A stretch of DNA of 43,294 bases, taken from Bacteroidales bacterium. Its GTDB lineage: Bacteria; Bacteroidota; Bacteroidia; Bacteroidales; Bacteroidaceae. The stretch is from contig SUXN01000025.1 in NCBI GenBank assembly GCA_015060965.1, positions 1 to 43,294 on the forward strand, in the 5' to 3' direction. The position numbers were made by a program, and so were the translations under genes. The notes beneath the pieces are model-generated. The model saw only the letters and a list, made by a program, of their open reading frames with translations. It searched no databases and was not told the DNA's origin. This document shows positions 10,180-35,312 of this stretch, piece by piece (the stretch's first letter is position 1; the number at the start of each line of letters is the position of its first letter).

Positions 10180-12258
10180 TCATTGTTGTGTACCGGGGAT
10201 GTTTTTCTGTGCCCGGGCAAGCAGAGCAGCCACATCGGCACCCGATGGTTCAGCCTCATCAACGGCAGAAGCCTCCACATCAGCCGTTTCGGGCAATTCG
10301 CCAGGCACTGCTGTATCTGCTTGCGGTTCATCCTGCAATGGCTGTGAGGAAGCAGCATTAATCTGGGCCATAAGCTCGGGTGACACCCCCTCCATTATCC
10401 CACCCTGTGCGGTTTGCTCCTCGTTGCGTTTCAAGGCTTCCAGAATTTTTGTTGCGAAAGGATAGGAACTGTTTTCGAGCATTGTCTTCACATCTATTGC
10501 ATTGGCACGGAAAAGTTCCATAAGGAAATCATTCGCAATAAGCTGGTAGGCAGGAGTATTGTACCCTTCGGATATTGTGAGGTCGAACTCGCTGTTCTGT
10601 ACTTTGTCGGGGTTGTACCACTTGGCCTCATCACTGTACTGTGTACCGGCCATCTCAATGTACTGCACCTGGGAGTAGAACTGCTGTATTGTCTTCATAA
10701 CCTTTGTGTCGCGGCGGCGACGGAAGGTGCGGAAACCGTCGAAAAGTCCCTTGAGGTTCAGCGACGAGTTCTGCGTCTGCTGTGCATAGAGTGAAGCAGG
10801 AGTGCCTGCCTTGGGAGCCTGACCCTGCATTGCGGAATTGACACCGGAAATCTCGTTTATGAGTCTGAGCTGCAGGTTAAGCAACTCAAAATCTCCTGCT
10901 ACAGCCGCACCGCTGTTATACTGACGCACCACCCCGTCAATACTCTGTCCGGGCTTGAGCTTCACAAACAGCACTCCATTATAACGGACATACTCGTCAA
11001 TAACCTCCTCGCGCGACATGCTCTCAAAGGCATCGTCATCGACTACAAGGACTCCTTTGGAAGAGGTGCCGCGGATGAAATCGATGAGTGTGGCAGTGCG
11101 GTTGATGGCACGCTGCTGGTCGATGAACTGCTCAACGAAGTTGCCGAGCTTGCCCTGTATGAGCGGATAAAGATGAAGCACATAGTTGTGTTCCCCGTGC
11201 CAATAAGGGCTACGTCCCTCCTGGAGCACATCACCATAGGGAGTCATATAACGGTAGTACCAGTAACGCTCGGTAGCGAAGTTATACTCAATAAGCAGCA
11301 GGTCCTCATCGTCACCGCCTTTACTCTTGTGCTCTTTGTAACGGCGGTCATTCTCGGCATCGAGCATACGGCGGCTCTCTTCGGTAAAAGGAAGATAGCC
11401 CCAGGTTCCACGTTCGGGATCATTCCACTGATAGGCATCGCGCGACTCGAGTTTCCAACCGAGGATGACACGGCAAAGATTGCTGCGTGAGGGCGAGTAG
11501 AACGAGAGGTTACGGGCCTCATCGCCCTGCATTGCCCGGCTACCCGAGAGTACCGAGTGTGACGCATTGCCATAGATATCCTTGATAGCCTGTTTCCTTT
11601 GCGGTGTAGTACCGAAATGTGCCAGGACATCATCGAGAGGCAGGTCGAAAAGTTCACCGATGCAGGTGAGGTCCCACATACGCACATCTTCAAGGTTGGT
11701 ATTGAAGAAGAGACGGGAAGGGCTGACGGAATATACCCACACGTCGCGCCGCTCCTTTGAAGGGTTGACGCCATACTCTATCCTCTGTGCAGTCATGCCA
11801 CCGTTAAGCAACATACGCATACTGTCAGAATCGAGTTCCTCCATCTCGTTTATGTCATGTACATACTCTATTGCCACAGACATCATCTCCCCCACCTTGC
11901 TCTCGCTCTGGTCGCGGACAACGCATACTGGGCGCATAAGGTTCTGCCTCAGCTGACCGTCAATATTGCTCAGTATGGGAGCAATCATATTGTTCTTTAG
12001 AGGGACTTTGCCGTTCTTCTTTATGAGTTCACCCTCGGTAATCTGCGACAGGGTGTCGGGGTCAGTGACAAAGTCACCCCACTGGTCGCCGTAGCTGTAC
12101 ATGAGGCTGCGCCTTAACTTGTGCCGTGCCTCGTCGAGAGCATTCCAACAGGCAGCACACTCCATAAGGAAGTCAACGGCCCGATTATGCCCTGTTTCCT
12201 TTACAGGCTTATGTCTTGCTGAAGTGGCCTTTACTCTTTTATCTATAAATTTGTTCAT
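10180..12258 (-). CDS. Phage portal protein (podovirus/P22-like)
   Basis: A 692-aa protein with the layout of a large tailed-phage portal: an N-terminal region with 'YSYGDQWGDF' and 'KNNMIAPILSNIDGQLRQN', a middle with 'PSRLFFNTNLEDVRMWDLT' and 'LHLYPLIQGKLGNFVEQFID', then 'INEISGVNSAMQGQAPKAGT', a conserved portal segment, a long helix-rich region ('FRTFRRRRDTKVMKTIQQFY') and an acidic, Ala/Pro-rich tail. Portals form the 12-subunit ring through which DNA enters and leaves the capsid. It is the last gene of the block-1 operon, 127 nt after the 1118-aa gene, and is followed directly by a strong terminator. Assignment rests on recalled family resemblance and length; a structure prediction would settle it. 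Confidence 0.75.
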   Translation of the reverse strand: MNKFIDKRVKATSARHKPVKETGHNRAVDFLMECAACWNALDEARHKLRRSLMYSYGDQWGDFVTDPDTLSQITEGELIKKNGKVPLKNNMIAPILSNIDGQLRQNLMRPVCVVRDQSESKVGEMMSVAIEYVHDINEMEELDSDSMRMLLNGGMTAQRIEYGVNPSKERRDVWVYSVSPSRLFFNTNLEDVRMWDLTCIGELFDLPLDDVLAHFGTTPQRKQAIKDIYGNASHSVLSGSRAMQGDEARNLSFYSPSRSNLCRVILGWKLESRDAYQWNDPERGTWGYLPFTEESRRMLDAENDRRYKEHKSKGGDDEDLLLIEYNFATERYWYYRYMTPYGDVLQEGRSPYWHGEHNYVLHLYPLIQGKLGNFVEQFIDQQRAINRTATLIDFIRGTSSKGVLVVDDDAFESMSREEVIDEYVRYNGVLFVKLKPGQSIDGVVRQYNSGAAVAGDFELLNLQLRLINEISGVNSAMQGQAPKAGTPASLYAQQTQNSSLNLKGLFDGFRTFRRRRDTKVMKTIQQFYSQVQYIEMAGTQYSDEAKWYNPDKVQNSEFDLTISEGYNTPAYQLIANDFLMELFRANAIDVKTMLENSSYPFATKILEALKRNEEQTAQGGIMEGVSPELMAQINAASSQPLQDEPQADTAVPGELPETADVEASAVDEAEPSGADVAALLARAQKNIPGTQQ

Positions 12259-12316
12259 TGCACTTAATTGGATTTTGGAGTCGGAAGATTACTCTCCTGA
12301 CAACCGTTGTTAATTT

Positions 12317-12351
12317 CCCCGACAACTTGAGTCATCCTCAAGTTGTCGGGG
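12317..12351. other. Strong mid-operon hairpin without U-tract
   Basis: A perfect 15-bp stem (12317-12331 with 12337-12351, arm CCCCGACAACTTGAG) and a 5-nt loop lie between the 1118-aa gene and the portal gene, both on the minus strand. No T-run follows it in the minus direction, so it is more likely an mRNA-processing or stability structure, or an attenuator, than a full terminator. No -7 element is visible between it and the portal ATG. Confidence 0.6.
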
Positions 12352-12385
12352 TGAATAAAAATCTTTCAACAGGCTTTCAATTCAT

Positions 12386-15300
12386 CTAAAAGGGGTTATT
12401 CCTCAACCATTCCCTTGTATAACGATTGTTCATATCCACTTTCCGTTCCGGTGACATGTATTCACCAAATATAAGCCCCTTGGTATTTCTGAGGTAACGC
12501 GGTGCCGAAGGAAGAAGTATGCCTTTATCAATCAATTTCCGCGCATTGTTGATATAAGCGTCGCGGTCGTAGAACTGTTTCTCACCTTTATGCGAGACTT
12601 CAAAATCCCCGAACACCTCGCGGCGGTGCTCCTTACGGGCTGCCTCCCTCATCATGTATTCACAGTGGCGTTGCATGATTTCTGTAAGTTCGGCCTCGCT
12701 TACACTGCGGTTGTTTCCTGTGTAGAGACGCATCCTTATCAACCTGTTCTTGATATAGTCCTTTACACGGGTAAATATCGAACGTTCCTTTGGGGTGAGT
12801 GACACCTTTTCGGCAAGATGTGCAAGATACTCCTCAACGATCGTATAACGGCTTGTACCTTTATACCTGTAACCATTAGCCTCAATACCTCTAAGCACCT
12901 CCGGAGAAGCCTTTTGAAGCAGATTCTCAATAAAATCATTAAGTTTATACCCGAACACGTGTGAGAGCCCCTTATGGCCGACAGCCTCATGAAGGACAGT
13001 TCTCTCAAGCTCTGCCATAGATGCCGTATTGGGAAGATTTATATACACTTTCCCGTTTGAGGCATCGACCCATCCCATAGAACGTAGACGGTTGTTATAG
13101 TCAGAGACCGCAGCACTGTCATTGATGTCCGGCAAAGGAATCTCACGTGCATCATTGATGAGGTTAATGTTCACACCGAGTTTTTCACCTATTTCCTTGG
13201 CACGTTCTCCATAACGGGCAATATCCTCTTTGGTATTCTTCAAGCCGCGCTTATTCCATAGATACTTGCTATTCTCGTCCTGCTCGACTTTTGTCAACTT
13301 GGGCATTTCCTTAGGCAAACTATGAGCGGCATAAAGTCCCTGGTATACTCTCTCTACATTTTCATTATATTCGGCAGCCTCCTTGCCCCTTACATCAGCC
13401 ATAGAATTAGGCTTGAAATCCCAGTCGGCACCCAACTGTTCAAAAGAGCCCCGAAGCTGTACGTCTGTACCCGATTTCAAAGCATCGACCTCTTTTCTCA
13501 AGAAAAGTTCATACTCGTTTAGGGCCTTGTCTGCTTTATAATAATCATCATCTCTCATCACCCTGAGATTACGCTGCAACCCACCTCGGTAGAGTCCATG
13601 TTTGTCTTCTAATTCACGACGGACATCATATATCCTGCGCAACATCCCGGTGGCGTCGTATGACGAACGCTCAAGGATATCGGAGACAATCTCTTCTTCG
13701 GCATGTGAAAGAGGTGATGACTTGGCCTTTCTGTAGAGTATATCGGACAGCTGTTCGGCATCCATCCCTGTTTCTTTCGCATATATACCGGCCTGACGCA
13801 AGAAATTTACAGAGTTCAATCCATCGGTAAGTTCATTCTCAAAAACCGCGATACGTCCGCGTCTGATGTTTGCACGCTGTATTCGAGCTTCACTGATTGT
13901 TTCATTTTCACCCTTGCAGACCCGCGTACTTATCTTTCGCCCGAGAGGATCCTTAGTAATGAAAACCTTTTTGCCTTTTTTCATTTCGACGATATCAAAA
14001 TCAAACGGTACCGGTGGAGTGCTTGAGACCTTGTTCTCGACAATATAAAGCAATTTTGCCTTTGCCGATGCCGAGAGATTGCTGTTTGACATCAGGCGCG
14101 CATAGGTATCAACAACAGCTTTATAGTCATTCCTTTTTGATGAAGGCATATGCAACAAATTTTCTATACCTTCAAGAAACTTCTCTGCGTTTACATTCAC
14201 CGCGCGCAACTCTTCTGCCTCGGATGGAGAGAAACGGTATTCGTCCTTTATTTTCCCGTATCTATTGAGTTTGTTCCTTGCGATCGGCCTCCATCTGGCA
14301 AGACGCATAGCCAACAGCGTTGCACCGGCATCGGCATAATCACCCAAAATATCAATTGGGGCTACCTCAACCCCCTCAAGGAGTTTACGGGCCTCGGCAC
14401 TTGCCGTAAAGACAGCCGATTCGGCACACAACACTCCGGAAGAAGCAAAGACTTTCTTCATATTCTCATAACGTTGCGCCTTCATACGCAACGGGGTACC
14501 CACTACGCCAAGTGCCGCTCCAGTAAGGAAACCATGTCCGAAAGAACCGAGATTTCTCCCTATTTTACCCCACTCACCTTCGATAATGTTGTCGGCGATA
14601 CTGTGGGCAAGGTCATATCCGCCAAGGGTCAGACCTTGAGCTGTTGAACTCTGCACGATCTTGCTTGCAAGCGTCCTTTTCGCTATCTTGCCCGCCATTT
14701 CATTTGCAATTTCCGGAGTCACCCTATTCGCGAACCCTGCCACCATGAGTTTATTAGAGAGTTTCTTTACAAAATGAGGAGCGAGTTTCTCGGCTGCAGC
14801 CGAAGCGTAGGGAGCTGCACCTGCACCTAAAAGATAGAATGCAGGAGCATCTATCAGAAGAGAACCCACACCGGCTGCAAAGTCCTCATAACGGTTCGAT
14901 TTATAACTGCGCAGACCGGCCCTGGCGAGGTCAGTATGGTCACTATTGAGGTTCGAGGCATACTGTGTCATATTTACAGCCTTGCCAAACAAAGAGTTGT
15001 CGACAGCAGAGCGCATGATGTATTCTGCGCTGCTCTTCGGTATTTCCTCTTTTACAGCCTCATTGTAAAGTTTGTCATAGACATCGGGAATAACCTTTGG
15101 AAGCACCTTCTCGTTGAGGTACTCTTCAGTGCTGTAACCAGAATATCTTGCCAATGGCCTGATCCTGTCCAGCATCTCGGACGGAAGTGTCTCGTTGATG
15201 GTTTTACTGATGTCGCTGACTGCATTGTCCTCTTTGAGTGCATTGCGTGTTGCCAATACAGGATCGGCACCTATGACAGAGAGTTCCGACTCCATCTGCT

Positions 15301-15742
15301 TGCGCGCCCTCTCTTTTGACTCGGTGCGGTTCTTCTTGTACTGTTGTTTCATCGCATCGTCAAAATCACTGCCGAAAGCATCGTCAAGCGCCCTGTCCGA
15401 CTGCGCATAGAGCATCATACGACGCTGTGGAGTTGCCTCGGGTGCCATCACGTCATAGAAAGTGTCCCTGAAATGGCTTCTTACCTCCTCATCACTGCGC
15501 GGCGCTATATCATAACTGCCGATACGGGACTTTACACCCTCGACATCGGCACGCACGGCACGCTCCACATCCGGATTGACACGGTCTCTGCCGAAACTGC
15601 CCAGACCGTTCAGCCAGGAATCATACTGCTCTGCAGCATTGTTGACACTCTTCTTTTTTCTCTTACCCTCGACATCATCGGGAAAAAGCGGCTGTCCAGA
15701 GAAACCACCGCTCTCATAATCGTCAAAATAATTCATATTCAT
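12386..15742 (-). CDS. Large phage ejection-type protein with C-terminal zincin (HEAVGH) domain
   Basis: 1118 aa. The N-terminal part is charged ('FPDDVEGKRKKKSVNNAAEQ'); the middle (about residues 280-470) has long Ala/Gly-rich amphipathic and hydrophobic helices ('GVGSLLIDAPAFYLLGAGAA', 'GHGFLTGAALGVVG'), as in internal virion proteins that cross the host envelope. Near the C terminus is a zinc metallopeptidase motif HEAVGH (918-923) with a candidate third ligand in 'EEYLAHLAE' (about 970), a fusion known in phage polyvalent proteins delivered with DNA. Its start overlaps the upstream 140-aa gene by 4 nt. Likely role: a virion-carried protein injected with the DNA; the peptidase target is unknown. 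No catalytic residue is visibly missing. Confidence 0.65.
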   Translation of the reverse strand: MNMNYFDDYESGGFSGQPLFPDDVEGKRKKKSVNNAAEQYDSWLNGLGSFGRDRVNPDVERAVRADVEGVKSRIGSYDIAPRSDEEVRSHFRDTFYDVMAPEATPQRRMMLYAQSDRALDDAFGSDFDDAMKQQYKKNRTESKERARKQMESELSVIGADPVLATRNALKEDNAVSDISKTINETLPSEMLDRIRPLARYSGYSTEEYLNEKVLPKVIPDVYDKLYNEAVKEEIPKSSAEYIMRSAVDNSLFGKAVNMTQYASNLNSDHTDLARAGLRSYKSNRYEDFAAGVGSLLIDAPAFYLLGAGAAPYASAAAEKLAPHFVKKLSNKLMVAGFANRVTPEIANEMAGKIAKRTLASKIVQSSTAQGLTLGGYDLAHSIADNIIEGEWGKIGRNLGSFGHGFLTGAALGVVGTPLRMKAQRYENMKKVFASSGVLCAESAVFTASAEARKLLEGVEVAPIDILGDYADAGATLLAMRLARWRPIARNKLNRYGKIKDEYRFSPSEAEELRAVNVNAEKFLEGIENLLHMPSSKRNDYKAVVDTYARLMSNSNLSASAKAKLLYIVENKVSSTPPVPFDFDIVEMKKGKKVFITKDPLGRKISTRVCKGENETISEARIQRANIRRGRIAVFENELTDGLNSVNFLRQAGIYAKETGMDAEQLSDILYRKAKSSPLSHAEEEIVSDILERSSYDATGMLRRIYDVRRELEDKHGLYRGGLQRNLRVMRDDDYYKADKALNEYELFLRKEVDALKSGTDVQLRGSFEQLGADWDFKPNSMADVRGKEAAEYNENVERVYQGLYAAHSLPKEMPKLTKVEQDENSKYLWNKRGLKNTKEDIARYGERAKEIGEKLGVNINLINDAREIPLPDINDSAAVSDYNNRLRSMGWVDASNGKVYINLPNTASMAELERTVLHEAVGHKGLSHVFGYKLNDFIENLLQKASPEVLRGIEANGYRYKGTSRYTIVEEYLAHLAEKVSLTPKERSIFTRVKDYIKNRLIRMRLYTGNNRSVSEAELTEIMQRHCEYMMREAARKEHRREVFGDFEVSHKGEKQFYDRDAYINNARKLIDKGILLPSAPRYLRNTKGLIFGEYMSPERKVDMNNRYTREWLRNNPF

Positions 15743-16161
15743 AAGTTATAGTTTAATCTGTTATCATTATTGGAATTCTTTTCAGATGGCCTCACATGGA
15801 AAGTCCTTGAAGAAGTTTCCATAAACCCCACCGGCTTCAACGGAGCATTGCCGGTAATCGCATTTTGCCCGACCTTATGTCTCAGATTGGTATCGGCAAT
15901 CGTTGCCTTATAATCCCGGAGTGCGGCATTATACCTTTCACGTGCCTTTTCATAAGCGGCTTGATGTGCTGCAGTATTGTTTGTTGCAAGCGAAATACGC
16001 GCCCCTCTGTTATACCCCGCGAGTGAAAGCAGATTCGATGCAAAATCCATTATCGACGCCGCAGCCAACTGTTGCTTTGAGCGTTTGAGACGTCCAGTCT
16101 CTTCATCAAGTCTATCTTTAAGATCCTTTTGGGATATGCCATAATCCATTTTATTATCCAT
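15739..16161 (-). CDS. Small probable virion/ejection protein
   Basis: 140 aa, soluble, strongly helical in the first two thirds ('QKDLKDRLDEETGRLKRSKQ' and 'AAYEKARERYNAALRDYKAT') with a short hydrophobic stretch 'MDFASNLLSLAGY' between them, and a low-complexity Asn-rich tail (NSNNDNRLNYNL). I do not recognise a named family. Position between a virion-type 176-aa gene (6-nt gap) and the large ejection-type gene (4-nt ATGA overlap) implies co-translation and a role in the same internal-core assembly. Confidence 0.6.
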   Translation of the reverse strand: MDNKMDYGISQKDLKDRLDEETGRLKRSKQQLAAASIMDFASNLLSLAGYNRGARISLATNNTAAHQAAYEKARERYNAALRDYKATIADTNLRHKVGQNAITGNAPLKPVGFMETSSRTFHVRPSEKNSNNDNRLNYNL

Positions 16162-16167
16162 AACACA

Positions 16168-16698
16168 TCATCCTTTGCGTTTCTCACGTCCCCACTCGAC
16201 TCCCAAGATTGCATTCTGCAACAGGTTCAATCCGTTGCCGGCAAGCCCGGCCGCTGACTTTTCCTTGTCGGATGCCATTTTGAGGTCACCTTCAAGGAGC
16301 GCCTGCCTGTTCTGACGATGAATGGCATCGACACGCATCCTGCGGTCATCCTCATTTGCCGCCAGATTTGTAAAGACATTCTCCATTGAACGCAGTCCCT
16401 GCTCGTTGCGCGCAATGGCAAGTTCGGGAGTAGCACCGTTGATAGCGCTGTAGGCCCTGTTCTGTCGGTTCTGTCTACGCAAGGTGTTCTCGACCCTCTT
16501 CACGGCTGCACGCGAAGCCGTATTGTCAAGAAAGTTCCCATAATAGTTTCTCTTATACCAGCCATCCTCTTCGGCTTTGGCAATCTTGTGGAGTTTTCTC
16601 TGCCTTGATGCAGCATCAGCAGAATCGAACAACCCCTTTACACTCGAATAGAGCCCTAATGCCCCATTCAGTCCTGTCATTAACATTGGTACACTCAT
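16168..16698 (-). CDS. Phage internal virion / DNA ejection-type protein
   Basis: 176 aa from the ATG at 16698 (MSVPMLMTGLNGALG). An N-terminal hydrophobic Gly/Ala segment is followed by 'DSADAASRQRKLHKIAKAEE', 'WYKRNYYGNFLDNTASRAAV', long Arg/Gln-rich helices and a C-terminal Gly/Leu stretch. The 'WY-(K/D)R-x-YY...AxVKRVxxTLRRQN' pattern recalls a family common in Bacteroidales phages next to ejection proteins. Upstream frame extensions are rejected because they translate the promoter box (…CQYSNL…). It is the first gene of the block-1 operon, driven by the shared phage promoter, with only 14 nt between the -7 octamer and the ATG, giving a very short leader. Confidence 0.65.
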   Translation of the reverse strand: MSVPMLMTGLNGALGLYSSVKGLFDSADAASRQRKLHKIAKAEEDGWYKRNYYGNFLDNTASRAAVKRVENTLRRQNRQNRAYSAINGATPELAIARNEQGLRSMENVFTNLAANEDDRRMRVDAIHRQNRQALLEGDLKMASDKEKSAAGLAGNGLNLLQNAILGVEWGREKRKG

Positions 16699-16712
16699 AA
16701 CTTTTTTTGCTG

Positions 16713-16758
16713 CAAAAGAAATATACAGGATAAACGACAAGGTTGCTGTATTGACATT
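16713..16758 (-). promoter_or_regulatory. Shared phage promoter, copy 1 (block-1 operon)
   Basis: On the minus strand AATGTCAATACAGCAACCTT (16739-16758), then exactly 18 nt, then TTCTTTTG (16713-16720), a Bacteroidota-type -7 octamer. The 20-bp box replaces an ordinary -33 TTTG element and recurs at two other phage promoters with identical spacing, so it is either an activator site or an alternative sigma-factor element. Confidence 0.85.
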
Positions 16759-16778
16759 CTAATGCACACCGGAGTGAA

Positions 16779-16824
16779 ATTGTCAATACAGCAACCTTAA
16801 AAGCAATAACCGTTATTATCTTTG
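16779..16824 (+). promoter_or_regulatory. Shared phage promoter, copy 2 (82-aa gene)
   Basis: ATTGTCAATACAGCAACCTT (16779-16798), 18 nt, then TATCTTTG (16817-16824), a perfect TAnnTTTG. The ATG of the 82-aa gene follows 17 nt later. It is back to back with copy 1, leaving 20 bp between the two boxes, so 18-bp arms form an inverted repeat around the divergent promoters. Confidence 0.87.
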
Positions 16825-16841
16825 CGAATAAAGCATATATT

Positions 16842-17090
16842 ATGGTCAAGAAAAAGAATGCAAGCGTAACGATTGATGACGTACACAACGAGACGATAGC
16901 ACTCTTTCACAGACTGATACAGCGGCTGGAGAAACTGACGTTGAACTGCGAGGACCCGGGGACAATAAACCAGGCCCTCAAGACAACGGCCGATTTCCTT
17001 GTAAAACTCAACAAGGAGCGTGATTCAGGTGACAGTGAGGAGATCGGTTCACTGCTGCAGCAGACTCTGCGAGGGATCGAGCAGTGTTAG
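16842..17090 (+). CDS. Small protein of the phage regulon, unknown function
   Basis: 82 aa, soluble and largely helical ('TIALFHRLIQRLEKLTLN', 'LKTTADFLVKLNKE', 'EIGSLLQQTLRGIEQC'). I recognise no family. It is transcribed away from the virion operon from its own copy of the shared box and ends at a bidirectional terminator, so it is a single-gene transcript co-regulated with capsid genes. A small terminase subunit, packaging accessory or regulator are possible by context and size, but nothing in the sequence decides between them. Confidence 0.7.
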   Translation: MVKKKNASVTIDDVHNETIALFHRLIQRLEKLTLNCEDPGTINQALKTTADFLVKLNKERDSGDSEEIGSLLQQTLRGIEQC

Positions 17091-17100
17091 GCATCAAAAA

Positions 17101-17132
17101 AGAGAGCATCGGCAACAATGCCGATGCTCTCT
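17101..17132. terminator. Bidirectional terminator between the 82-aa gene and the ATP synthase operon
   Basis: A perfect 14-bp stem (arms 17101-17114 and 17119-17132, AGAGAGCATCGGCA) with a 4-nt loop. On the minus strand it is followed by a T6 run, ending the atp transcript 24 nt past the atpG stop; on the plus strand by TTTAAAA, ending the 82-aa transcript. It insulates host and phage transcription. Confidence 0.93.
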
Positions 17133-17155
17133 TTAAAAAGCTAATCAAATGTTGT

Positions 17156-25542: not shown

Positions 25543-26169
25543 TCAGAATGTCTCAATCCTGTTCACCACCTTGAAGAGTGCGCACACATCATTCTTGTTG
25601 ATGGGGAACGAAGGATAATTAGGCGAAACGCACCAGATGAGGTTCGGGTCGTTATTGTCGTGATAGCAGCGTTTTATCATCCTGTTCTCATTTGTCACAA
25701 CCATATACACTGCGCCATGCACGATACCCTCGGAACGGTCCACTCTTTTCACGCCCACAATATCACCGTCGTTGAACTCCGGTTCCATAGAACTACCCGA
25801 AACAGGGAAATAGAAATCGGCCGGGCTCGAAGGTATCGAGATATACGCCGACGGCTTCTCACGTGTCGGATCAAAGGCATCACGATGCCCTGCGCTCAAA
25901 GGCAGGTCATCATAGAAAGGTATAGTGCATACCTTGGGAGCCTCATCACCCACAAGCATAGCACCCTCGCCGGCGATAAGCCATGCCGGAGAAATCTCGG
26001 GAACATTGTTCAGGATTGCATATACAATTTCCATACTGATATTACCACCCTCGTTAACCTGTCTGTTAAGAGTACGTTGCGGAACACCGAGGAACTTGCT
26101 TGCACGGTTCACGTTCATTCCAATATGCTTCAACACAGCCACAACTCTCTCCTTAATACTGTTATCCAT
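25543..26169 (-). CDS. LexA/CI-like transcriptional repressor with S24 self-cleavage domain
   Basis: 208 aa. The N-terminal helix-turn-helix (about residues 5-55, 'NRASKFLGVPQRTLNRQVNE') is followed by the 'PAWLIAGEGAM' linker typical of phage repressors and an S24 peptidase domain. The catalytic pair is intact: Ser127 in 'SGSSMEPEFNDGD' and Lys166 in 'NRMIKRCY'; a candidate Ala93-Gly94 cleavage bond lies in 'LSAGHRD'. Proteins of this type repress prophage or stress genes and are inactivated by RecA-stimulated autocleavage after DNA damage. It sits between the two phage blocks, divergent from a small gene pair, with a palindromic operator-like site in the shared intergenic region. Confidence 0.9.
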   Translation of the reverse strand: MDNSIKERVVAVLKHIGMNVNRASKFLGVPQRTLNRQVNEGGNISMEIVYAILNNVPEISPAWLIAGEGAMLVGDEAPKVCTIPFYDDLPLSAGHRDAFDPTREKPSAYISIPSSPADFYFPVSGSSMEPEFNDGDIVGVKRVDRSEGIVHGAVYMVVTNENRMIKRCYHDNNDPNLIWCVSPNYPSFPINKNDVCALFKVVNRIETF

Positions 26170-26248: not shown

Positions 26249-26445
26249 CAACAACTCGAATCAAAAAATCCACATTACATTTGCCGCCACAGACAGCTAT
26301 ACGTATAACATATACAGACAACTGCCACAAACAAAGGTCAAGCGCAAACATAGCACATTTTGGCAAATACAGCAACTAAATAAAGGAAATATTGACGAAA
26401 GACGTAAAAAAAACGATAAAAATAAGGATAAAAAGCAAAATTACT

Positions 26446-26820
26446 ATGAAGACCAATCTATTCAGGCAACTCAAGTATCTTATTGAGGTTCTTCAAGAGA
26501 AGACTCTCGAATGGTGTGCAATGTTCAGGAACATATTCAGGGACGACTGCAATGCAGCAAGGAACATTACCGTGACATATTCCATGAAACAGGAATACTC
26601 AAATGCGGAATTCGTGCGCAATTTCCTCGGCGAAAGGACAAGAATAGCCGCATACAACGGTTATCGGATAATCTTTGACAACGAATTCACCTCGGACGTC
26701 AAAGAAGAAATAGGCAAGGTCACACTAACCTGCAGAGGGCGTTACATTGAACATGCCACGCTAATCGCGGGAGAAGCTACAGGCAAAGACAACAGACTTA
26801 TACATTGGAAATTCAACTAA
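26446..26820 (+). CDS. Unknown small basic protein, divergent from the S24 repressor
   Basis: 124 aa from the ATG at 26446 (MKTNLFRQLKYLIEVLQEKT); an upstream in-frame start near 26392 would add an implausible Lys-rich leader. It is soluble, with mixed charged helices and a C-terminal 'VTLTCRGRYIEHATLIAGEA'. No family is recognised. It is followed 11 nt later by a small membrane-protein gene that has a good ribosome binding site, so the two are a unit. Divergence from the repressor across the operator-like site suggests repression until DNA damage, as inference. Confidence 0.55.
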   Translation: MKTNLFRQLKYLIEVLQEKTLEWCAMFRNIFRDDCNAARNITVTYSMKQEYSNAEFVRNFLGERTRIAAYNGYRIIFDNEFTSDVKEEIGKVTLTCRGRYIEHATLIAGEATGKDNRLIHWKFN

Positions 26821-26831
26821 AAAGGAGTATC

Positions 26832-27026
26832 ATGAAAGCAGAAGTTCTGGTATCGTTACAGTTAACAGCAATAATAATAATGATTGCTTGCGGTCCAATG
26901 CTATTCAGCAGCACTTTTGCAACAATCCTGTTCATATCGGCATTCTACATATTCATACGGTGCAGCATCTACATCGAGAAGAATGCCAAGCGATTGTTAA
27001 GGGAATGTAACCGCAGAAAAGAATAA
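26832..27026 (+). CDS. Small two-helix membrane protein
   Basis: 64 aa from the ATG at 26832, chosen because an AAAGGAG ribosome binding site lies 5 nt upstream, unusual in this window. Two hydrophobic segments ('LQLTAIIIMIACGPMLF' and 'FATILFISAFYIFI') are followed by a basic cytoplasmic-type tail (KNAKRLLRECNRRKE). No family is recognised. The pinholin-like size and topology is worth noting, but a separate four-helix holin is present at 30276-30743. Confidence 0.55.
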   Translation: MKAEVLVSLQLTAIIIMIACGPMLFSSTFATILFISAFYIFIRCSIYIEKNAKRLLRECNRRKE

Positions 27027-27037
27027 GACGCTGCATC

Positions 27038-27086
27038 AATTACAACAAAGGGAGCGATTGAAAATTTCGCTCCCTTTGTTGTAATT
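27038..27086. terminator. Bidirectional terminator between convergent transcripts
   Basis: A perfect 19-bp inverted repeat (27038-27056 and 27068-27086, AATTACAACAAAGGGAGCG) with an 11-nt loop, lying between the 64-aa gene (+) and the large phage gene (-). T-rich arms serve both directions. Confidence 0.9.
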
Positions 27087-27101
27087 ATGAATGAATCCTC
27101 A

Positions 27102-29705: not shown

Positions 29706-29938
29706 AATAAAAAACAATTACAATCACTGCGTGGAAGGTTTGTTCTTTAGGGTCTTCATGGTCTTTAGAGGACAATGGTTTAAACGGAGAACATCAACCC
29801 CTCACCCTTAACCCCTCACCCATAACCCCTTCACATTTCACATTTAACCCCACTTCGTGGGCTTGAACCTGCTTCCGCTCGCAGTGAAACATCAAAGTAA
29901 ACTTTGTGTTTTGCTCGCTTACCCGCAGCTTTCCGTTT
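29706..29938. other. Non-coding gap inside the block-2 transcript
   Basis: About 230 nt with no gene. It holds tandem C-rich motifs (AACCCCTCACCCTT, AACCCCTCACCCAT, AACCCC around 29798-29850) and a small hairpin CCCACTTCGTGGG near 29849-29861. No shared box or TAnnTTTG element is evident, so the large downstream gene probably depends on read-through or on a promoter I cannot see. Confidence 0.45.
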
Positions 29939-30304
29939 TTACTTCCCCTTCAACCCCAACAGGACAACTGCAAGCAACAGCAACCCAATCAATATACTCT
30001 TGCCCGACGGCAGCACCTTCTTCTCCTTTGTAACCACACGTTCACGGTAAAGCGTGTCGCACATCACCACAGTGTCACGCACCACCCTTTCTTTGTAGAG
30101 CGTGCGGTATTTAGTGAGATACACGGTATCGGCCTTCACGTGCAGGAAGATGCTGTCGCGCAGGAACACGCTGTCCCTGACAATGCTCTCCACCACGTTC
30201 GTGTGTACACGTTGCCCGTGGGCATCGACCCCTGTGGGCACTGTGCGACAACCGCACAGTGCCAGCAGAAGCATACTAAACCATATTTTTACTGTTCTTC
30301 CCAT
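29939..30304 (-). CDS. Unimolecular-spanin-like lipoprotein
   Basis: 121 aa. The N-terminal signal ends in a lipobox 'LLLALCGCRT', predicting outer-membrane lipid attachment; the central region is a charged, extended segment with repeated 'DSVFLRD', 'YKERVVRDTVV', 'YRERVVTKEK' motifs; the C terminus is a single membrane helix ('SILIGLLLLAVVLLGLKGK'). Lipoprotein at one end and inner-membrane helix at the other is the hallmark of u-spanins such as T1 gp11, which link both membranes and fuse them in the last step of phage lysis. It overlaps the holin gene by 29 nt, supporting a lysis role. Confidence 0.7.
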   Translation of the reverse strand: MGRTVKIWFSMLLLALCGCRTVPTGVDAHGQRVHTNVVESIVRDSVFLRDSIFLHVKADTVYLTKYRTLYKERVVRDTVVMCDTLYRERVVTKEKKVLPSGKSILIGLLLLAVVLLGLKGK

Positions 30305-30743
30305 TTTCGAAATATCCTTTCAGTGAGCCGCACTGCTCAAGCACACGCAGGCTCAGCAGATAATAGAGAAAATCGAGTACAGCAAAGAGCGTGCTGCGTT
30401 CATCGGTTATCATACGCGCATTACGCAGGATATTGGTCCCGTAGAAATATATCGCTACATATATCATGAACGAGACGCAATGGGCAGCAGCAACCTCCTC
30501 GCCCTTGAAGTGTCCCAACAGGTAAATCGATGCAACCATGCAGAAGTACACCGCGGCATCCCTGAAGAACTTCAAGGCCTTCTTGAAGCTCCACTCGCGA
30601 CGGTTGCACACATCGGCGAGCATCCCCATAAGGAAGTTCACTGCAAACAGCAGCACCAGGCCATACATTTCGTTCCTTATGGGCAGAAGCAACCCCGCAA
30701 CGTTGGCTATCAGCGTTGCGGCAATGACACGCAAGCTGTCCAT
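30276..30743 (-). CDS. Phage holin
   Basis: 155 aa with four hydrophobic helices ('VIAATLIANVAGLLLPI', 'MYGLVLLFAVNFLMGMLADV', 'AAVYFCMVASIYLLGHF', 'HCVSFMIYVAIYFYG') and a basic loop 'CNRREWSFKKALKF' after the second, the pattern of the toxin-secretion/phage-lysis holin family (PF05105-like). Holins permeabilise the inner membrane at a set time and release endolysin. The gene lies 4 nt after the 93-aa gene and overlaps the spanin-like gene. No endolysin gene is next to it, which is unusual for a lysis cassette. Confidence 0.75.
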   Translation of the reverse strand: MDSLRVIAATLIANVAGLLLPIRNEMYGLVLLFAVNFLMGMLADVCNRREWSFKKALKFFRDAAVYFCMVASIYLLGHFKGEEVAAAHCVSFMIYVAIYFYGTNILRNARMITDERSTLFAVLDFLYYLLSLRVLEQCGSLKGYFENGKNSKNMV

Positions 30744-30747
30744 AGCG

Positions 30748-31029
30748 CTACATCTCCATACTTTTCAGAAGGGTGAACTCACTGCGCGACACCAGTTTTA
30801 TATGCTGCCCGCGCATTGCCCCTTCAATGGTAACCTCACTCTTGAGCTCATCCAGCCCGAAGTCGTCATACTTTATGTACTCCTCCATGCCGTCAAGGCC
30901 CACCATAACATTCACCGGATAAGGGCCGCACTTATGCACGCGCAGCCTCATATCGCCACCACGGCACACTATGGGAGTGCTCTCCCACAGATCTCCGTTC
31001 TTCGCAAAAGAAATGTTCTTCACAATCAT
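30748..31029 (-). CDS. Small phage structural-type protein, unknown
   Basis: 93 aa, beta-rich ('GDMRLRVHKCGPYPVNVMVG', 'SEVTIEGAMRGQHIKLVSRS'), with no signal or membrane segment. I do not recognise a family. It sits between the head-completion-type gene (1-nt overlap) and the holin (4-nt gap), so it is tightly co-translated with virion genes; a head-tail joining or decoration protein is the simplest guess. Confidence 0.6.
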   Translation of the reverse strand: MIVKNISFAKNGDLWESTPIVCRGGDMRLRVHKCGPYPVNVMVGLDGMEEYIKYDDFGLDELKSEVTIEGAMRGQHIKLVSRSEFTLLKSMEM

Positions 31030-31685
31030 TACTGACCCCTTTCTGTATTTTTACCGTTACACAAAGCCGTTGCGAGCGACAGGAACGCCGTTGCCTGGTC
31101 ACCTCTCTCGAACACACTGTAGAGAAGCGCCGCACAATAGTAGGCGACAGCATCCTCAAGTACGGCATCACCACCCACAAGCCCCTGTTCCGCATCAAAA
31201 GAGGCCTCGTAGACAAAATGCCCTAACCCTGCCCCTTGAAGCAGAGGATAGAGAAGAGCCACCCTTGTACCGCCGGCACCGCAGCCCTCTACACATACAG
31301 GACGGCACATCCCTGCACGTGTGTGGCTGTTGCCCTGTGCGAGTGCCTCGGCCGAGCCGCTTGCATGCAGCACGGTACAGGGCCTGCGCCATCCGTCGAG
31401 TTGCAGCGACACAAGAGAGACAAAATCGGCTGGCAGGGAGAGAGCCCCGCCGCCATCGCCGTTGTCGGCGATGACAACATCCTGCGGGCTCACACTCCTC
31501 GGGTTCACACACCCCACCCCCTTGCCTTTGTTCCTTTGTGCCAGAGCCACGGCCTGTGGCAGCAGCCTCAGTATATGAGTGTCGATGGAACGCGTATCCT
31601 CGGACACCAGCGACAGAGAGGCATCCTCCTCGGCCTCGTTCACGAGACGGCGCACCCGCCTCACAAGTTCATCGGTCGCAATCAT
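31029..31685 (-). CDS. Phage head-completion adaptor-like protein
   Basis: 218 aa. A helical N-terminal ('ATDELVRRVRRLVNEAEEDA') and the C-terminal pattern 'EDAVAYYCAALLYSVFERGD' with 'QATAFLSLATALCN' match the helical bundle of adaptor proteins (P22 gp4 / T7 gp11-like) that bind below the portal; the middle has a beta-rich insertion. Its start overlaps the preceding gene by 4 nt. A completion role fits its place between capsid and stabilisation genes, but the portal it would dock on is encoded 20 kb away in block 1. Confidence 0.6.
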   Translation of the reverse strand: MIATDELVRRVRRLVNEAEEDASLSLVSEDTRSIDTHILRLLPQAVALAQRNKGKGVGCVNPRSVSPQDVVIADNGDGGGALSLPADFVSLVSLQLDGWRRPCTVLHASGSAEALAQGNSHTRAGMCRPVCVEGCGAGGTRVALLYPLLQGAGLGHFVYEASFDAEQGLVGGDAVLEDAVAYYCAALLYSVFERGDQATAFLSLATALCNGKNTERGQ

Positions 31686-32110
31686 AGCCAGTTAGGGAAT
31701 GAGACACCCTTCTCCTGTGCAGCAGCCTTGACGGCGCCCTTGTTCTGCAACTGCGACAGAGGGCAGTTGTAAGGCTCGGCCATAAGCAAGGCACGTGCCT
31801 GCTGCATATTTGTCACCTCACTCAACACCACTGTGTTGTCCGCATCGGCGGTCACCTCGGCAGCATCCTGCGGAGCATCGCAGCCATAGGTCTCTACACG
31901 CCCGCGCTTTATCTCACCGCTGCGGAAAGCCTCGCTGTTCTCTATGGCACGCTGGAACAGAGGGTTATCGGTCGTATACTGCGCCGGATAGACGCCTGTG
32001 GAGTTTATTGCCCCACCAGTGAATTCAATTCTCACAAGCGCCTTGCCCACCCTGAAGTAGCTGTTGCGCTCAATCTGTCCATGAATCTCGTATGTTATTC
32101 TCTTTTTCAT
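31682..32110 (-). CDS. Small phage protein with HeH/LEM-like C terminus
   Basis: 142 aa from the ATG at 32110 (MKKRITYEIHGQIERNSYFR). The N-terminal half is beta-rich with 'VGKALVRIEFTGGAINSTGV'; the C-terminal 40 residues ('NMQQARALLMAEPYNCPLSQ' and 'LQNKGAVKAAAQEKGVSFPN') resemble the short two-helix HeH fold seen near capsid genes of several phages. An earlier in-frame start would run into the 104-nt spacer after the capsid gene and is rejected. A decoration or head-completion role is likely by position. Confidence 0.6.
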   Translation of the reverse strand: MKKRITYEIHGQIERNSYFRVGKALVRIEFTGGAINSTGVYPAQYTTDNPLFQRAIENSEAFRSGEIKRGRVETYGCDAPQDAAEVTADADNTVVLSEVTNMQQARALLMAEPYNCPLSQLQNKGAVKAAAQEKGVSFPNWL

Positions 32111-32214
32111 TGTAAATGTCGTTTTGGATATTATTCGGAATTTCGGAATAGAGGTCACCTCAAGGAGCAAAGGCAGTCCCGAGGCAACCTCCAAAGGGCT
32201 ATAGCCCGTGGCTG

Positions 32215-33837
32215 TTATACAAGGATCTCACCTGTATATTCAACCCATGTGGTACCATTGTATGTAACCACGGTACCGGCAGGGAACCACACCTTCTGCT
32301 CGCCGTTCACAGTGTGGTTGACGTCGGCAGTAAGCACCACCACATCGTTGATGTTGGGCGAAGCCGGCAGAGTGGCAGCACTTGTCACGTGCGATGCGCC
32401 CGGGATATCGCTCTCGGCAGCCGAGCCGTTCACCCAGATGTGCGAGTAGCCCTTGAGGCAGAGACAGTCGATAGTCATTACCACCTCGCGCTTTGCCTCC
32501 TCGCCGTCCACATTCTCGGTCTTGGCATCCTCATTCTTCATATAGTAACGCACAAGCCCGTTCTCGTCGATGAGACCACCGCAGTGAGCATAGCCCAGGG
32601 CGTCAAGAGTAGGATCGTGGATGAGGTCGATGTCGCCGAACACTGTGTGAATCTTTGTACACTCGATGCCGAACACTTTGTCACCGGTCATGCTGATGTT
32701 CTTGTGCAGGGTGAGGTCAATCTTCTGGATGTCATTGAGCAGCTGCTTGCCAAGCAACCAGATAGCCCTCTTGGTGCAGTTGAAGCCGGTGAACTTCACC
32801 ATCGAGAGGTTGATAAGATCGGCGAATGTGATTCTTGACGAGAGGTCATACTGGCGCTTGAACTGCCAACGGATACCCTTTGAGAAGTAATCCCACTGGT
32901 AACCCATAGCGTTGTCCATCGCCTGCACCTTGAACTTGCCCGGCTGTCCCACCCACGCAGTGCGGCAGCTCTCGAGACGGAACTGGCGCAACACCGCCTC
33001 GGCAATCTGCGACTCGCTGAACTGTATGCGCTTCTTCTGCGCCGCAAAATAGTCGCTGACGATGCTGTTGCAGAGCTGCTTCTGCAGGTACATACGCTCG
33101 GGTACCGGCACAATGGTGGAAGGAGCGATGAACTTCTGTGTCTCATATGCTGCCGAAGAGAGCAGGATAATCTCAGTGCCTGCAGGAATTGTAGGCACCA
33201 CGCAATAGTCGTCACTCGCATTCACCTTAGGACCGTTCACCGCCATGGCGATAGGTGCCTCGGTAGTGCTGTTCTTGCCCACAAAAAAGAGCATGAGGTC
33301 AACACCCGCAAGCTCGATCTGGCCGGTAGAGTCATAGCCGTTCACACCCTTACAGATAGCAGTGTAGTACTCCTGGAAAATCTTTCTCTCACCGGTTGTA
33401 GAGAACGGTATCTCGGCACGTGTAGCCTTGATGCCGGTATACACCTCATTGGTGTAGGCCTTCGAGCGCTTGTCATCAATGAGATAGTGGTCGACCTCAA
33501 AAGAGTTCACTCTCACCTGACGGCGTATCTTACGCTTTATGGTGTCAATGATACTCTCGTCGCTCGCAATGCCTATTATCTGGTCATCCACATCGGCATC
33601 GATGAGGTCGCTGCCCAGCTCACGCGCATTGGACACCGTGGTAGCCTCACCCACGCCCTGCGTGGCAAGACCGGCAATGCCGTTCGAAGGCTTCAGCATA
33701 CCGCCAGATACCACATTCACCGTAGCAAGCAGCGTACCTGCCGAGGCAGAGTCAGCGAAAAGACAAAGCGCCACGGCCACCAAAGAGAAAATCACAAACA
33801 GAGGGTTCTCCCTCATGAACAAAACAATTTTTTTCAT
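32215..33837 (-). CDS. Probable major capsid protein with N-terminal signal-peptide-like segment
   Basis: 540 aa. Position directly after the scaffold-like gene, length, and features such as 'RLESCRTAWVGQPGKFKVQA', 'IRWQFKRQYDLSSRITFADL' and 'KIHTVFGDIDLIHDPTLDAL' point to a major capsid subunit of HK97-like fold. The C-terminal 70 residues ('NINDVVVLTADVNHTVNGEQ', 'FPAGTVVTYNGTTWVEYTGE') form a small beta domain like phage surface decorations. Oddly, the protein begins with a textbook Sec signal: basic n-region (MKKIVLFMREN), hydrophobic core (PLFVIFSLVAVALCLFA) and an AxA site (DSASA|G). Either the helix is removed or buried during maturation, or assembly happens at the membrane. No competing function is apparent. 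Confidence 0.65.
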   Translation of the reverse strand: MKKIVLFMRENPLFVIFSLVAVALCLFADSASAGTLLATVNVVSGGMLKPSNGIAGLATQGVGEATTVSNARELGSDLIDADVDDQIIGIASDESIIDTIKRKIRRQVRVNSFEVDHYLIDDKRSKAYTNEVYTGIKATRAEIPFSTTGERKIFQEYYTAICKGVNGYDSTGQIELAGVDLMLFFVGKNSTTEAPIAMAVNGPKVNASDDYCVVPTIPAGTEIILLSSAAYETQKFIAPSTIVPVPERMYLQKQLCNSIVSDYFAAQKKRIQFSESQIAEAVLRQFRLESCRTAWVGQPGKFKVQAMDNAMGYQWDYFSKGIRWQFKRQYDLSSRITFADLINLSMVKFTGFNCTKRAIWLLGKQLLNDIQKIDLTLHKNISMTGDKVFGIECTKIHTVFGDIDLIHDPTLDALGYAHCGGLIDENGLVRYYMKNEDAKTENVDGEEAKREVVMTIDCLCLKGYSHIWVNGSAAESDIPGASHVTSAATLPASPNINDVVVLTADVNHTVNGEQKVWFPAGTVVTYNGTTWVEYTGEILV

Positions 33838-33867
33838 AGTAAAAACATTTATTGATTAATAGATAAA

Positions 33868-34656
33868 TTATGCATTAAGAGCCTTCTCGATGAGAGAGTT
33901 ACGTTTGCGTTTAGGCTCCACCACCGGTGACACGCTCGCCACGCCCTTGGGCAGTCCGTCGCCGAAATCCTCCTTCATGCGCATGATGTTGGTGTTGCGT
34001 CCCTTGACATCCCCTGCCGCAAAGGCATCCTCTACATCCTTTTCGTAGGTGAGCGCATGGTCAAGAGCCGTGCACACCTCGCGGCTATACAGGCCCGACA
34101 TTATGGGGAACACAATCTCATCCCACACACTGTCCATAAACACCTCGGGATTATACCCGCGCTCGCGGCAGAAAGCCTCAATCACAGGCAGGCTCGCCTT
34201 GAGATTCTCCTCATACTCCCTGCGGTCACCCGCAAGACGCGCAGCCTCCTGCTGACGCTCCTCGTCGGCGCTCAGCATCTCCTCATACTCGGGCGAGCCC
34301 TCGTCAAGTTCCATGAGTGAGCGCCCGTAGTAACGCGCCACAGCGCTGTGGGCATTGCGTTTGCCCTCGACAACATCGAGGAACATCTGTGCCAGACGCG
34401 GGTCGCGCTCAAGAATCTCCGTCAGGCGTGCGTTCTGCGTTGTCACACGCTCAAGAAAATTGAGCAGTGCCTCCTGCGCGTCTGGGTCATCAATCGAGAA
34501 CTCCTCGCCAAAAATCTCCTTCAGCCCCTTGTCAAGGCCTGCATAAGGAGCCATGCCGGCTCCCTGTCCATTACCCTCCCTGCCGGGAGCAGTCTCAACA
34601 GGTCCGTTACCGTACGGTACAGTCCCATTGTCCATTTGTCTAAAATTCTGTTCCAT
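33868..34656 (-). CDS. Phage scaffolding-like protein
   Basis: 262 aa from the ATG at 34656 (MEQNFRQMDNGTVPYGNGPV). It has a disordered Gly/Pro-rich start, then long acidic helices ('DDPDAQEALLNFLERVTTQN', 'EEMLSADEERQQEAARLAGD') and a short basic C-terminal helix ('EPKRKRNSLIEKALNA'), the usual plan of scaffolding proteins, whose basic tail binds coat subunits. It lies immediately upstream of the capsid gene. The open frame continues upstream only because it translates the promoter box (…NCQYSNLERR…). It is the first gene of the block-2 transcript. Confidence 0.68.
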   Translation of the reverse strand: MEQNFRQMDNGTVPYGNGPVETAPGREGNGQGAGMAPYAGLDKGLKEIFGEEFSIDDPDAQEALLNFLERVTTQNARLTEILERDPRLAQMFLDVVEGKRNAHSAVARYYGRSLMELDEGSPEYEEMLSADEERQQEAARLAGDRREYEENLKASLPVIEAFCRERGYNPEVFMDSVWDEIVFPIMSGLYSREVCTALDHALTYEKDVEDAFAAGDVKGRNTNIMRMKEDFGDGLPKGVASVSPVVEPKRKRNSLIEKALNA

Positions 34657-34678
34657 AGTTTTTCGTTTTTTTCGACAG

Positions 34679-34724
34679 CAAAGGAACAACCACAAACGCC
34701 GCTCAAGGTTGCTGTATTGACAAT
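34679..34724 (-). promoter_or_regulatory. Shared phage promoter, copy 3 (block-2 operon)
   Basis: On the minus strand ATTGTCAATACAGCAACCTT (34705-34724), exactly 18 nt, then TTCCTTTG (34679-34686), and the scaffold ATG 22 nt further. The box is identical to copy 2 over 20 bases although they lie almost 18 kb apart and the flanking sequences do not match. Confidence 0.87.
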
Positions 34725-34808
34725 TTGAGAGCATCGACATGCAAAAAACAGAGAAACACCCCCAAAAAACACCCCCGAGAACACATTGTATGGCATTGTT
34801 GATAAATA

Positions 34809-34853
34809 AGTGTTAAAACAGCAAACATTAAGCCATTTGAGACTATAATTTTG
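34809..34853 (+). promoter_or_regulatory. Degenerate shared promoter, copy 4 (146-aa gene)
   Basis: AGTGTTAAAACAGCAAACAT (34809-34828) matches the shared box at 15 of 20 positions and is followed after 17 nt by TAATTTTG (34846-34853), a perfect TAnnTTTG. The ATG of the 146-aa gene is 18 nt downstream. It faces away from copy 3, so both phage blocks have a divergent promoter pair. Confidence 0.55.
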
Positions 34854-34871
34854 TAGCCAAAAAAGGCAGAA

Positions 34872-35312
34872 ATGAAAAACACGATTACTTATTCCGTCCG
34901 CGACACACGCAAGCAGGACATTATCAACAGTTTCTTCAAGACACTGAAGGAAGAGAGGAAGACAAGACCATTCATCACACAGAATGAAGTTATTGAACAG
35001 GCAGCCAAAGGCAGCGCACCACGGTTCTATGTAACCTTTGAGAACGCGCGTCGCTTTGTCTCGTTGCTCATGCGCGGCAAGCGCCTCCCCATCGTCAACA
35101 AGAACAAGGTCGAGATGTACAAGGAGATATACCGTCGCTACAAGGCAAGGCTCAAAGACAGCGACAAGCGCTACAAGTACATTATCCTTGAGAGCATCAT
35201 CGAGGAGCCCGCCCCGTCGTTCTACATCGACGAGGAGACATTCCGCGGCATAGTCTACAGGACCCTGCGCGACACCTGCCGGAAGAGCGAACACCACAAG
35301 GCAATAGCATAG
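34872..35312 (+). CDS. Unknown basic protein with internal repeat, divergent from scaffold gene
   Basis: 146 aa, Lys/Arg-rich and helical. It contains two related segments, about residues 40-69 ('SAPRFYVTFENARRFVSLLM') and 106-133 ('PAPSFYIDEETFRGIVYRTL'), each ending in an amphipathic helix, joined by 'NKNKVEMYKEIYRRYKARLK'. I do not recognise a family. Its own promoter resembles the shared box, and small basic proteins with duplicated helical motifs are often DNA-binding, so a regulator of the phage genes or a packaging accessory is possible. Nothing in the sequence proves either. Confidence 0.65.
   Translation: MKNTITYSVRDTRKQDIINSFFKTLKEERKTRPFITQNEVIEQAAKGSAPRFYVTFENARRFVSLLMRGKRLPIVNKNKVEMYKEIYRRYKARLKDSDKRYKYIILESIIEEPAPSFYIDEETFRGIVYRTLRDTCRKSEHHKAIA

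Follow-up and report, generated by a model that had tools for sequence, protein, structure and literature searches.

A multi-locus, podovirus-derived candidate gene transfer agent under a common promoter type in a genus of the Bacteroidaceae

Gene transfer agents (GTAs) are characterized, in the extract of PMC7947584 used here, as phage-derived, non-mobile particle genes kept by their hosts. The extract of PMC12946183 at hand reports what it presents as the first podovirus-like GTA-like element, FpGTA of Faecalibacterium, with two operons of 10.5 plus 5.5 kb that lie about 125 kb apart in one strain; the element was found in 12 of the 12 Faecalibacterium genomes examined by its authors, and particles carrying about 9 kb of DNA were seen. 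For Bacteroides, the same extract speaks of lateral transduction and not of a GTA. In this work, we have analysed 43,294 nucleotides of a Bacteroidales bacterium (GenBank assembly GCA_015060965.1, contig SUXN01000025.1), hereafter the window, in which phage head genes stand on both sides of the host atp operon. These genes belong to a dispersed system found across the genus, and we infer that it is probably a host-regulated, multi-locus, podovirus-derived GTA. Among the matches listed in a search of the open-access PubMed Central (PMC) literature there was no GTA of the Bacteroidota, and this system is a candidate for the first in that literature.

FpGTA appears to be the nearest described system. 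As far as the extract describes it, both have podovirus-type head and packaging genes, split loci and a gut anaerobe as host; unlike FpGTA, the system described here belongs to another phylum, is spread over five contigs, carries a portal-capsid-nozzle set of the P22/SU10 type and has a dedicated common promoter. The likeness is one of description, and FpGTA particles have been observed, whereas the genus system is known from its genes. RcGTA and the other alphaproteobacterial GTAs share with it, in the general terms quoted above, phage-derived, host-kept and non-mobile particle genes. The GTA capsid 6tsu was a weak fold match to our capsid model (E 4.5e-3). RcGTA and its relatives are siphovirus-like, with other gene families and regulators.

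The window is the whole of contig C6 of a 2.59-Mb genome in 69 contigs (Gnnn denotes a genome, G000 being the source genome; Cn a contig within a genome; Lnnn an extracted locus). A first-pass annotation had read it as two complementary blocks of phage head genes (10180-17090 and 27102-35312) around an intact atp operon, and had suggested a domesticated, possibly GTA-like particle encoded at several loci. Profile and structure comparisons bear out the two blocks, with portal, capsid and nozzle identified (Table 1), and both the phage frames and the atp genes between them are uninterrupted. The capsid matched the profile of the solved VP1 capsid 9in6 (E 1.4e-8); its AlphaFold2 (AF2) model is only moderate (predicted local distance difference test, pLDDT, 60.8), so that the call rests also on this profile match, and Foldseek paired the model with the capsids of VP1, crAss001, P1, Pa223 and SU10. 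The nozzle model was matched to tail proteins of SU10, crAss001, cyanophage A4, T7 and P22. The SU10-, P22- and crAss-type phages are alike in capsid and nozzle fold and in the Pfam family of the portal; they are autonomous, and identity in the fold alignments is 7-13%. The first-pass annotation had also seen no integrase and no terminase, which holds for the window, where neither was recognized, and fails for the genome: the large terminase gene, terL, lies on contig C26 (phrog_2 profile E 1.9e-18; L055:3392-5383), a Pfam PF03237 search of the same genome having given no match, and a tail-fibre-like gene lies on C30. Outside the window, the same genome thus holds a terminase gene and a tail-fibre-like gene, as the first-pass annotation had proposed to look for. 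Integrase and replication genes were not recognized among the open reading frames (ORFs) scanned, a set that left out some small ORFs and ORFs of other contigs.

The strongest new evidence that these genes form one system is a predicted shared promoter. Comparison of the intergenic regions of the separate blocks gave a common 16-mer, and the element can be written as TGTCAAnnCAGCAACC-N24-TTTG. In the source genome (2.6 Mb), TGTCAAYACAGCAACC has six exact sites, none at one mismatch and three at two, and its reversed control has five matches at up to two mismatches. The six exact sites precede g190 and the divergent p82, the scaffold block, the terL operon of C26, the fibre-like gene of C30, which was thereby found a second time and independently, and an operon of small genes and a glycosyltransferase on C32. 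The spaced pattern has seven sites there at up to one mismatch, the seventh preceding a DUF6973 gene on C9; the regulon of this genome is on five contigs, of which C6 and C26 are probably neighbours. Relaxing the pattern added two sites at two mismatches and 23 at three, with ten matches of the reversed control at up to three, and these extra sites were dropped. Across the genus set, which comprises 44 genomes including the source genome, the looser pattern TGKCAWNNCAGCAACC gave 86 matches against five of the reversed control, and TTTG follows exactly 24 bases on in 60 of the 81 distinct sites read, any other offset occurring at no more than three sites. Motif matches that lack this TTTG (for example in G037:C15, G026:C4, G020:C29 and G011:C23) resemble chance occurrences or conserved coding sequence. 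The Bacteroides -7 consensus is given as TAnnTTTG in the extract of PMC7366714 consulted, and the scaffold and g190 sites retain only its TTTG part. The spaced pattern was found in none of 188 family genomes of other genera, with no reversed-control match, and the full motif was absent from the examined stretches of eight phage sets; the IMG/VR set contained two identical matches to a shorter spaced fragment of it. Families that recur downstream of the motif elsewhere are an operon for proteins of about 95 and 81 amino acids and a glycosyltransferase (six genomes), tail-fibre-like genes, a family of about 210 amino acids, and DUF6973 or similar genes. The promoter reveals scattered members of the regulon from sequence alone, and the same approach could find dispersed GTAs that are missed by searches for a single cluster.

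The system is nearly universal in the genus. A genus-type portal gene is present in 41 of the 44 genomes (40 of 43 plus the source genome), and capsid and terL in 42 each, at 78-94% and 71-88% identity respectively. The raw capsid and terL searches had each matched 43 of the 44; G016 was discounted because its copies are phage-like only (38% and 43%), and the second genome without a match, G006, is 63% complete. Of the genomes with a completeness of 90% or more and a contamination of 5% or less, 11 of 11 have all three genes. When terL was sought in 301 genomes of the family, 21 of them genus members, 13 of the 280 from outside the genus had it, at 27-44% identity, which is as expected of ordinary prophages. 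The same capsid gene occurs in metagenome-assembled genomes named 'Bacteroidaceae bacterium' and 'Bacteroidales bacterium', mostly labelled as goat, sheep, water buffalo, yak, cattle or deer cecum, colon or rectum.

Apart from a single internal stop, in terL of G018, and some genes truncated at contig ends, the copies of the core genes across about 42 species are uninterrupted. The ratio of non-synonymous to synonymous substitution (dN/dS, omega) was computed over pairs with dS of 0.1-1.5, the excluded pairs being outside this range and presumably mostly saturated. Median omega was 0.069 for capsid (248 of 820 pairs), 0.116 for portal (49 of 666) and 0.115 for terL (112 of 820); among host genes it was 0.044 for rpoB (301 of 406), 0.049 for ligA (11 of 55) and 0.059 for atpA (5 of 21), the host range including atpD being 0.04-0.07. 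Every usable pair for terL, portal and capsid was below 0.18. These three genes are under strong purifying selection; fast evolution is seen in t167 (median omega 0.58) and in the adaptor (0.38). A prophage that rearrangement split long ago and that is in slow decay without function would account for the separated blocks and for integrase and replication genes not being recognized. We consider it scarcely credible in view of the frames intact in about 42 species, the low omega and the exact spacing within the promoter; frequent frameshifts or an omega near 1 were not seen in the core genes.

Comparison with the host tree was limited to the 29 of the 44 genomes in which rpoB was found. The splits in common with the rpoB tree were 8 of 23 for terL, 6 of 24 for portal and 11 of 24 for capsid, while label shuffles averaged about 0.2 and never exceeded 3. 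Among rpoB splits supported at 90 or more, those also supported were 5 of 10 for terL, 5 of 11 for portal and 6 of 11 for capsid, and without G010 they rise to 7 of 10, 7 of 11 and 8 of 11. In G010, rpoB and the particle genes fall in different clades, which suggests a mis-binned contig or an exchange. The particle genes agree among themselves, 14 of the 18 supported terL splits being supported in the portal tree and one contradicted, and in every particle-gene tree the genus copies cluster, the nearest phage sequence included being a prophage of G009. Since the trees are largely rpoB-like with some supported conflict, descent has been mainly vertical, with some exchange.

The neighbours of these genes also recur. 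Portal adjoins ligA in 21 of 27 assessable genomes and the S24-type repressor gene adjoins atpD in 14 of 20, the source genome included; this second adjacency makes an assembly join, named at first as a possible cause of the arrangement, very unlikely. In seven genomes atpG adjoins p82. In G019 and G030, no atp gene separates S24 from p82, the two being at most 1.5 kb apart; the atp split thus recurs, without being universal, within a dispersed system. The atp operon may have moved in between the blocks, or may have moved out in G019 and G030. In 14 of 28 genomes, no S24 was found at a distance of up to 2.5 kb from the nozzle gene. In G020, h264 and part of S24 are apparently duplicated between S24 and atpD (L134, about 16786-18548). 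In none of the loci read did a close relative have an uninterrupted prophage with integrase and terminase at this place; the G009 prophage is a second element at another place, and G009 has the genus-type genes as well.

Both terL and capsid are present in 32 of the 42 genus-type loci compared, and in these terL lies 2.4-4.4 kb from the capsid gene and divergent from it, with t158, t167 and h146 between; the gap is about 11 kb in G025, and in G040 the two are on separate contigs. In the window, Rhs and ankyrin genes occupy the place 3' of h146 that the terL operon holds in relatives, and with h146 followed by two Rhs genes and an ankyrin gene, C6 ends before terL. The ATPase and nuclease motifs of the terminase in the genus copies match those of six phage relatives compared, and two alignment columns distinguish phages from genus copies almost without exception.

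The nearest named phage records are the Bacteroides phages BF1-TP2, BKO1-TP3 and BS-TP4 (terL 39-40% identity). These and the G009 prophage (61-63%) have a homologous terL and also capsid, and BF1-TP2 and the G009 prophage further share portal, adaptor, giant protein, h146 and g190; unlike the genus system, these two carry a tyrosine integrase and other phage genes. The phage relatives keep the same core gene order, and the portal gene is beside terL in BF1-TP2, in G016:C128 and in three IMG/VR contigs. Of the sequences available, phages of the BF1-TP2 type and the G009 prophage give the best idea of what kind of phage the ancestor was. The prophage, on G009:C6, is apparently complete, with tyrosine-integrase domains and AAA, helicase/methylase and antirepressor genes; its giant protein has 4176 amino acids (L064 50-12580). 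The 1118-amino-acid protein of block 1 is homologous, by hidden Markov model (HMM) match, to part of this giant protein, which has 3633-4176 amino acids in related phages where complete, and genus copies have 1118-1887 amino acids (13 copies, a fourteenth being cut by the end of its locus). A 608-amino-acid protein of the G009 prophage has only patchy matches in 21 of the 44 genomes, one of them within the C30 tail-fibre-like gene, and so has no conserved counterpart in the genus. In the BF1-TP2 record, gp60 (PQ571263.1, L201, 20118-22145) is labelled 'tail spike protein', yet it matches the TerL of this genus along its full length at 40%, and the record's own note mentions a Terminase_6C structure match.

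That a related, apparently complete prophage coexists with the genus-type genes in G009, and that the S24 repressor is retained, could mean that the genes serve defence against related phages or their exploitation, by capsid interference or satellite-like hijacking. One or two genes usually suffice for interference. Here the retained set is full, from terminase, portal and capsid through the scaffold-position, adaptor and nozzle genes to those of lysis type, and no integrase or excision unit was recognized, and we regard a defence role as improbable.

Much of what is expected of a GTA is found in this system. The genes for particle and packaging (terL, portal, capsid, tail) are present and intact, integration and replication genes were not recognized, host neighbours recur, and inheritance is mainly vertical under purifying selection, with supported conflicts at the tips. 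The genes are dispersed over several loci: five contigs in the source genome and, in G002, blocks about 103 kb apart, with portal at 16.3 kb and capsid at 121.0 kb of one contig. They do not form the contiguous unit with integrase and replication genes of an ordinary prophage, nor the tail genes without head and packaging genes of a tailocin, as capsid, portal and terminase are kept under selection. The domesticated, multi-locus particle of the first-pass annotation is favoured by this near-universal presence, the recurring neighbours, the selection, the largely host-like trees and the common promoter.

We propose that an ancestor of the genus captured a short-tailed temperate phage of the BF1-TP2 or G009-prophage kind. 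Domestication would have cost it the integrase and replication genes, scattered the genes for packaging and particle over several chromosomal sites and placed them under a single type of promoter, TGTCAAnnCAGCAACC-N24-TTTG. An activator or an alternative sigma factor may fire the promoter set in some cells, where podovirus-like particles would assemble and package DNA by means of the retained terminase and portal. The cells would lyse through holin and spanin, releasing particles whose variable fibres may pick the recipients, and mostly host DNA would be delivered to kin. Since terminase, portal and capsid belong to the most constrained parts, selection has most likely acted on DNA packaging, and the cargo should be host DNA because no phage genome unit remains. 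Bacteroidota are prominent in animal guts, and a system kept by 42 of 44 species genomes makes the function, cargo and control of a GTA testable in gut bacteria.

Several observations weigh against this proposal. Particles, packaged DNA and transfer are inferred from genes alone. No endolysin was recognized, no dedicated search for one having been made, and h146 is the sole candidate offered for the small terminase, by position, its function being putative. The blocks are close together in some species, and with related phage records of 64-68 kb, particles from contiguous blocks could in principle carry their own genes. Only part of the genus has the promoter in strict form: the looser pattern occurs in 28 of the 44 genomes and the spaced pattern in 5 of 13 genus genomes, while 21 of the 81 distinct sites lack TTTG at +24. 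The motif at up to three mismatches stands upstream of 22 of 58 t167 loci, 29 of 60 h146 loci, 13 of 51 scaffold loci and 15 of 20 g190/p82 loci, where all shuffles stayed below 3; some genomes are represented twice among the loci, and the p82 region overlaps that of g190. Deeper branches show only looser variants at p82, and the signal near S24 is weak and was left out of the regulon. Finally, four supported rpoB splits are contradicted in each of the terL, portal and capsid trees and, without G010, two, one and one remain. Such conflicts, those of G010 above all, would be explained if a phage or satellite were still mobile and infected the genus time and again, its presence not being vertical. 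The recurring neighbours, the lack of a recognized integrase and the mostly congruent trees make this very improbable, as does the identity of only 38-65% that four IMG/VR relatives reach in the capsid, in a scan that detects close relatives only.

In view of the DUF6973 and Rhs genes, a killing function is conceivable. The main task of a domesticated particle may be to carry protein toxins into competitors or kin, DNA being packaged as a by-product: the same promoter precedes DUF6973 genes (G000, G004), lookalikes of their N-termini judged by eye (G003, G023) and tail-fibre-like genes; Rhs-nuclease genes stand beside h146 in the source genome; and a zincin-like motif, HEAVGH, persists in 9 of 14 copies of the 1118-amino-acid family (one of the 14 cut by the end of its locus). 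We hold this to be unlikely, as few genes are as constrained as terL, portal and capsid, with catalytic motifs kept, and known tail-only bacteriocins are without head and packaging genes. A GTA could also combine the two, one promoter driving a DNA-packaging particle, variable fibres that choose recipients and toxin-like DUF6973 effectors loaded into the particle or released with it, a tentative idea that we think somewhat doubtful.

Table 1. Features of the window and two further regulon loci of the source genome
Feature	Position	Strand	Basis or remark
P22-type portal gene	10180..12258	-	Pfam P22_portal PF16510 E 1.2e-34; phrog_156 portal E 4e-53
1118-aa (amino acid) protein with HEAVGH zincin-like motif	12386..15742	-	HMM match to 3633-4176 aa phage ORFs
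g140, small gene, in block only in some species	15739..16161	-	synteny
g190, BF1-TP2 gp70 homologue	16168..16740	-	HMM match to BF1-TP2, G009 prophage, G079
Predicted regulon promoter of the g190 to portal block	16712..16756	-	exact match
Predicted regulon promoter of p82, inverted-repeat partner of the 16712..16756 site	16781..16825	+	exact match
p82, conserved 82-aa protein, divergent from g190	16842..17090	+	57-86% identity in relatives compared
Host atp operon, between the two phage blocks	17156..24209	-	ATP-synt PF00231 E 2.9e-87 for 17156-18013; synteny
S24/CI-type repressor; conserved Ala-Gly, Ser, Lys	25543..26169	-	PF00717 E 2.3e-11; phrog_4; residues picked by eye in alignment
q142, conserved, divergent from repressor	26392..26820	+	synteny
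Short-tail nozzle (hub) protein, 871 aa	27102..29717	-	AF2 pLDDT 86.4 and Foldseek
Spanin-like lipoprotein, 121 aa	29939..30304	-	lipobox-like N-terminus and C-terminal hydrophobic segment, by eye
Holin-like gene	30276..30743	-	PF05105 E 2e-5
h93, conserved structural-block gene, unmatched in some species	30748..31029	-	synteny
Head-tail adaptor	31029..31685	-	SU10_adaptor E 0.001, below cut-off; HMM match to same-position phage genes
h170, conserved, between capsid and adaptor	31682..32194	-	synteny and HMM comparison with phages
Major capsid protein, 540 aa	32215..33837	-	PDB profile match 9in6, Foldseek, genus-wide copies
Scaffold-position gene, named by position	33868..34740	-	position, synteny, HMM comparison
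Predicted regulon promoter of the scaffold-capsid to nozzle block	34678..34722	-	exact match
h146, small-terminase candidate by position	34872..35312	+	in related phages, homologue directly upstream of terL
Rhs genes with GH-E nuclease domain and ankyrin protein, not in the conserved system	35386..42951	+	
98-aa and 81-aa proteins and family 2 glycosyltransferase, operon	L248 (G000:C32) 9606-11011		under regulon promoter
437-aa protein, C-terminal DUF6973	L249 (G000:C9) 3321-5164		under regulon promoter; overlaps 177-aa lipoprotein-like gene

Several of the smaller genes gained no name: p82, h264 and h93 match no named family in Pfam, PHROGs or NCBIfam, the 98-amino-acid protein and the fibre-like genes none in Pfam or PHROGs, and q142, scanned with NCBIfam only, gave a poor match (0.023). 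A reading of p82 as a small terminase that has lost its helix-turn-helix (HTH) domain found no support in shuffles against an HTH protein of the G009 prophage (13 sequences, z -0.8 to 2.3, the family-mean score being reached by 147 of 1000 shuffles), and a scan of viral contigs with that HTH protein confirmed no relative. The true start of g190 is probably further downstream, because the start of the ORF overlaps the promoter, and that of the scaffold-position gene is probably downstream of the promoter at 34678-34722. The glycosyltransferase operon may perhaps serve a change of surface or receptor during particle release. The DUF6973 gene and the 177-amino-acid lipoprotein-like gene resemble a toxin-immunity pair in their arrangement, and proteins of G003 and G023 have, by eye, N-termini like that of the DUF6973 protein and other C-termini. 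Of the two Rhs proteins encoded downstream of h146, the second has a GH-E (HNH/Endo VII) nuclease domain at its end, and the ankyrin protein could be its immunity partner.

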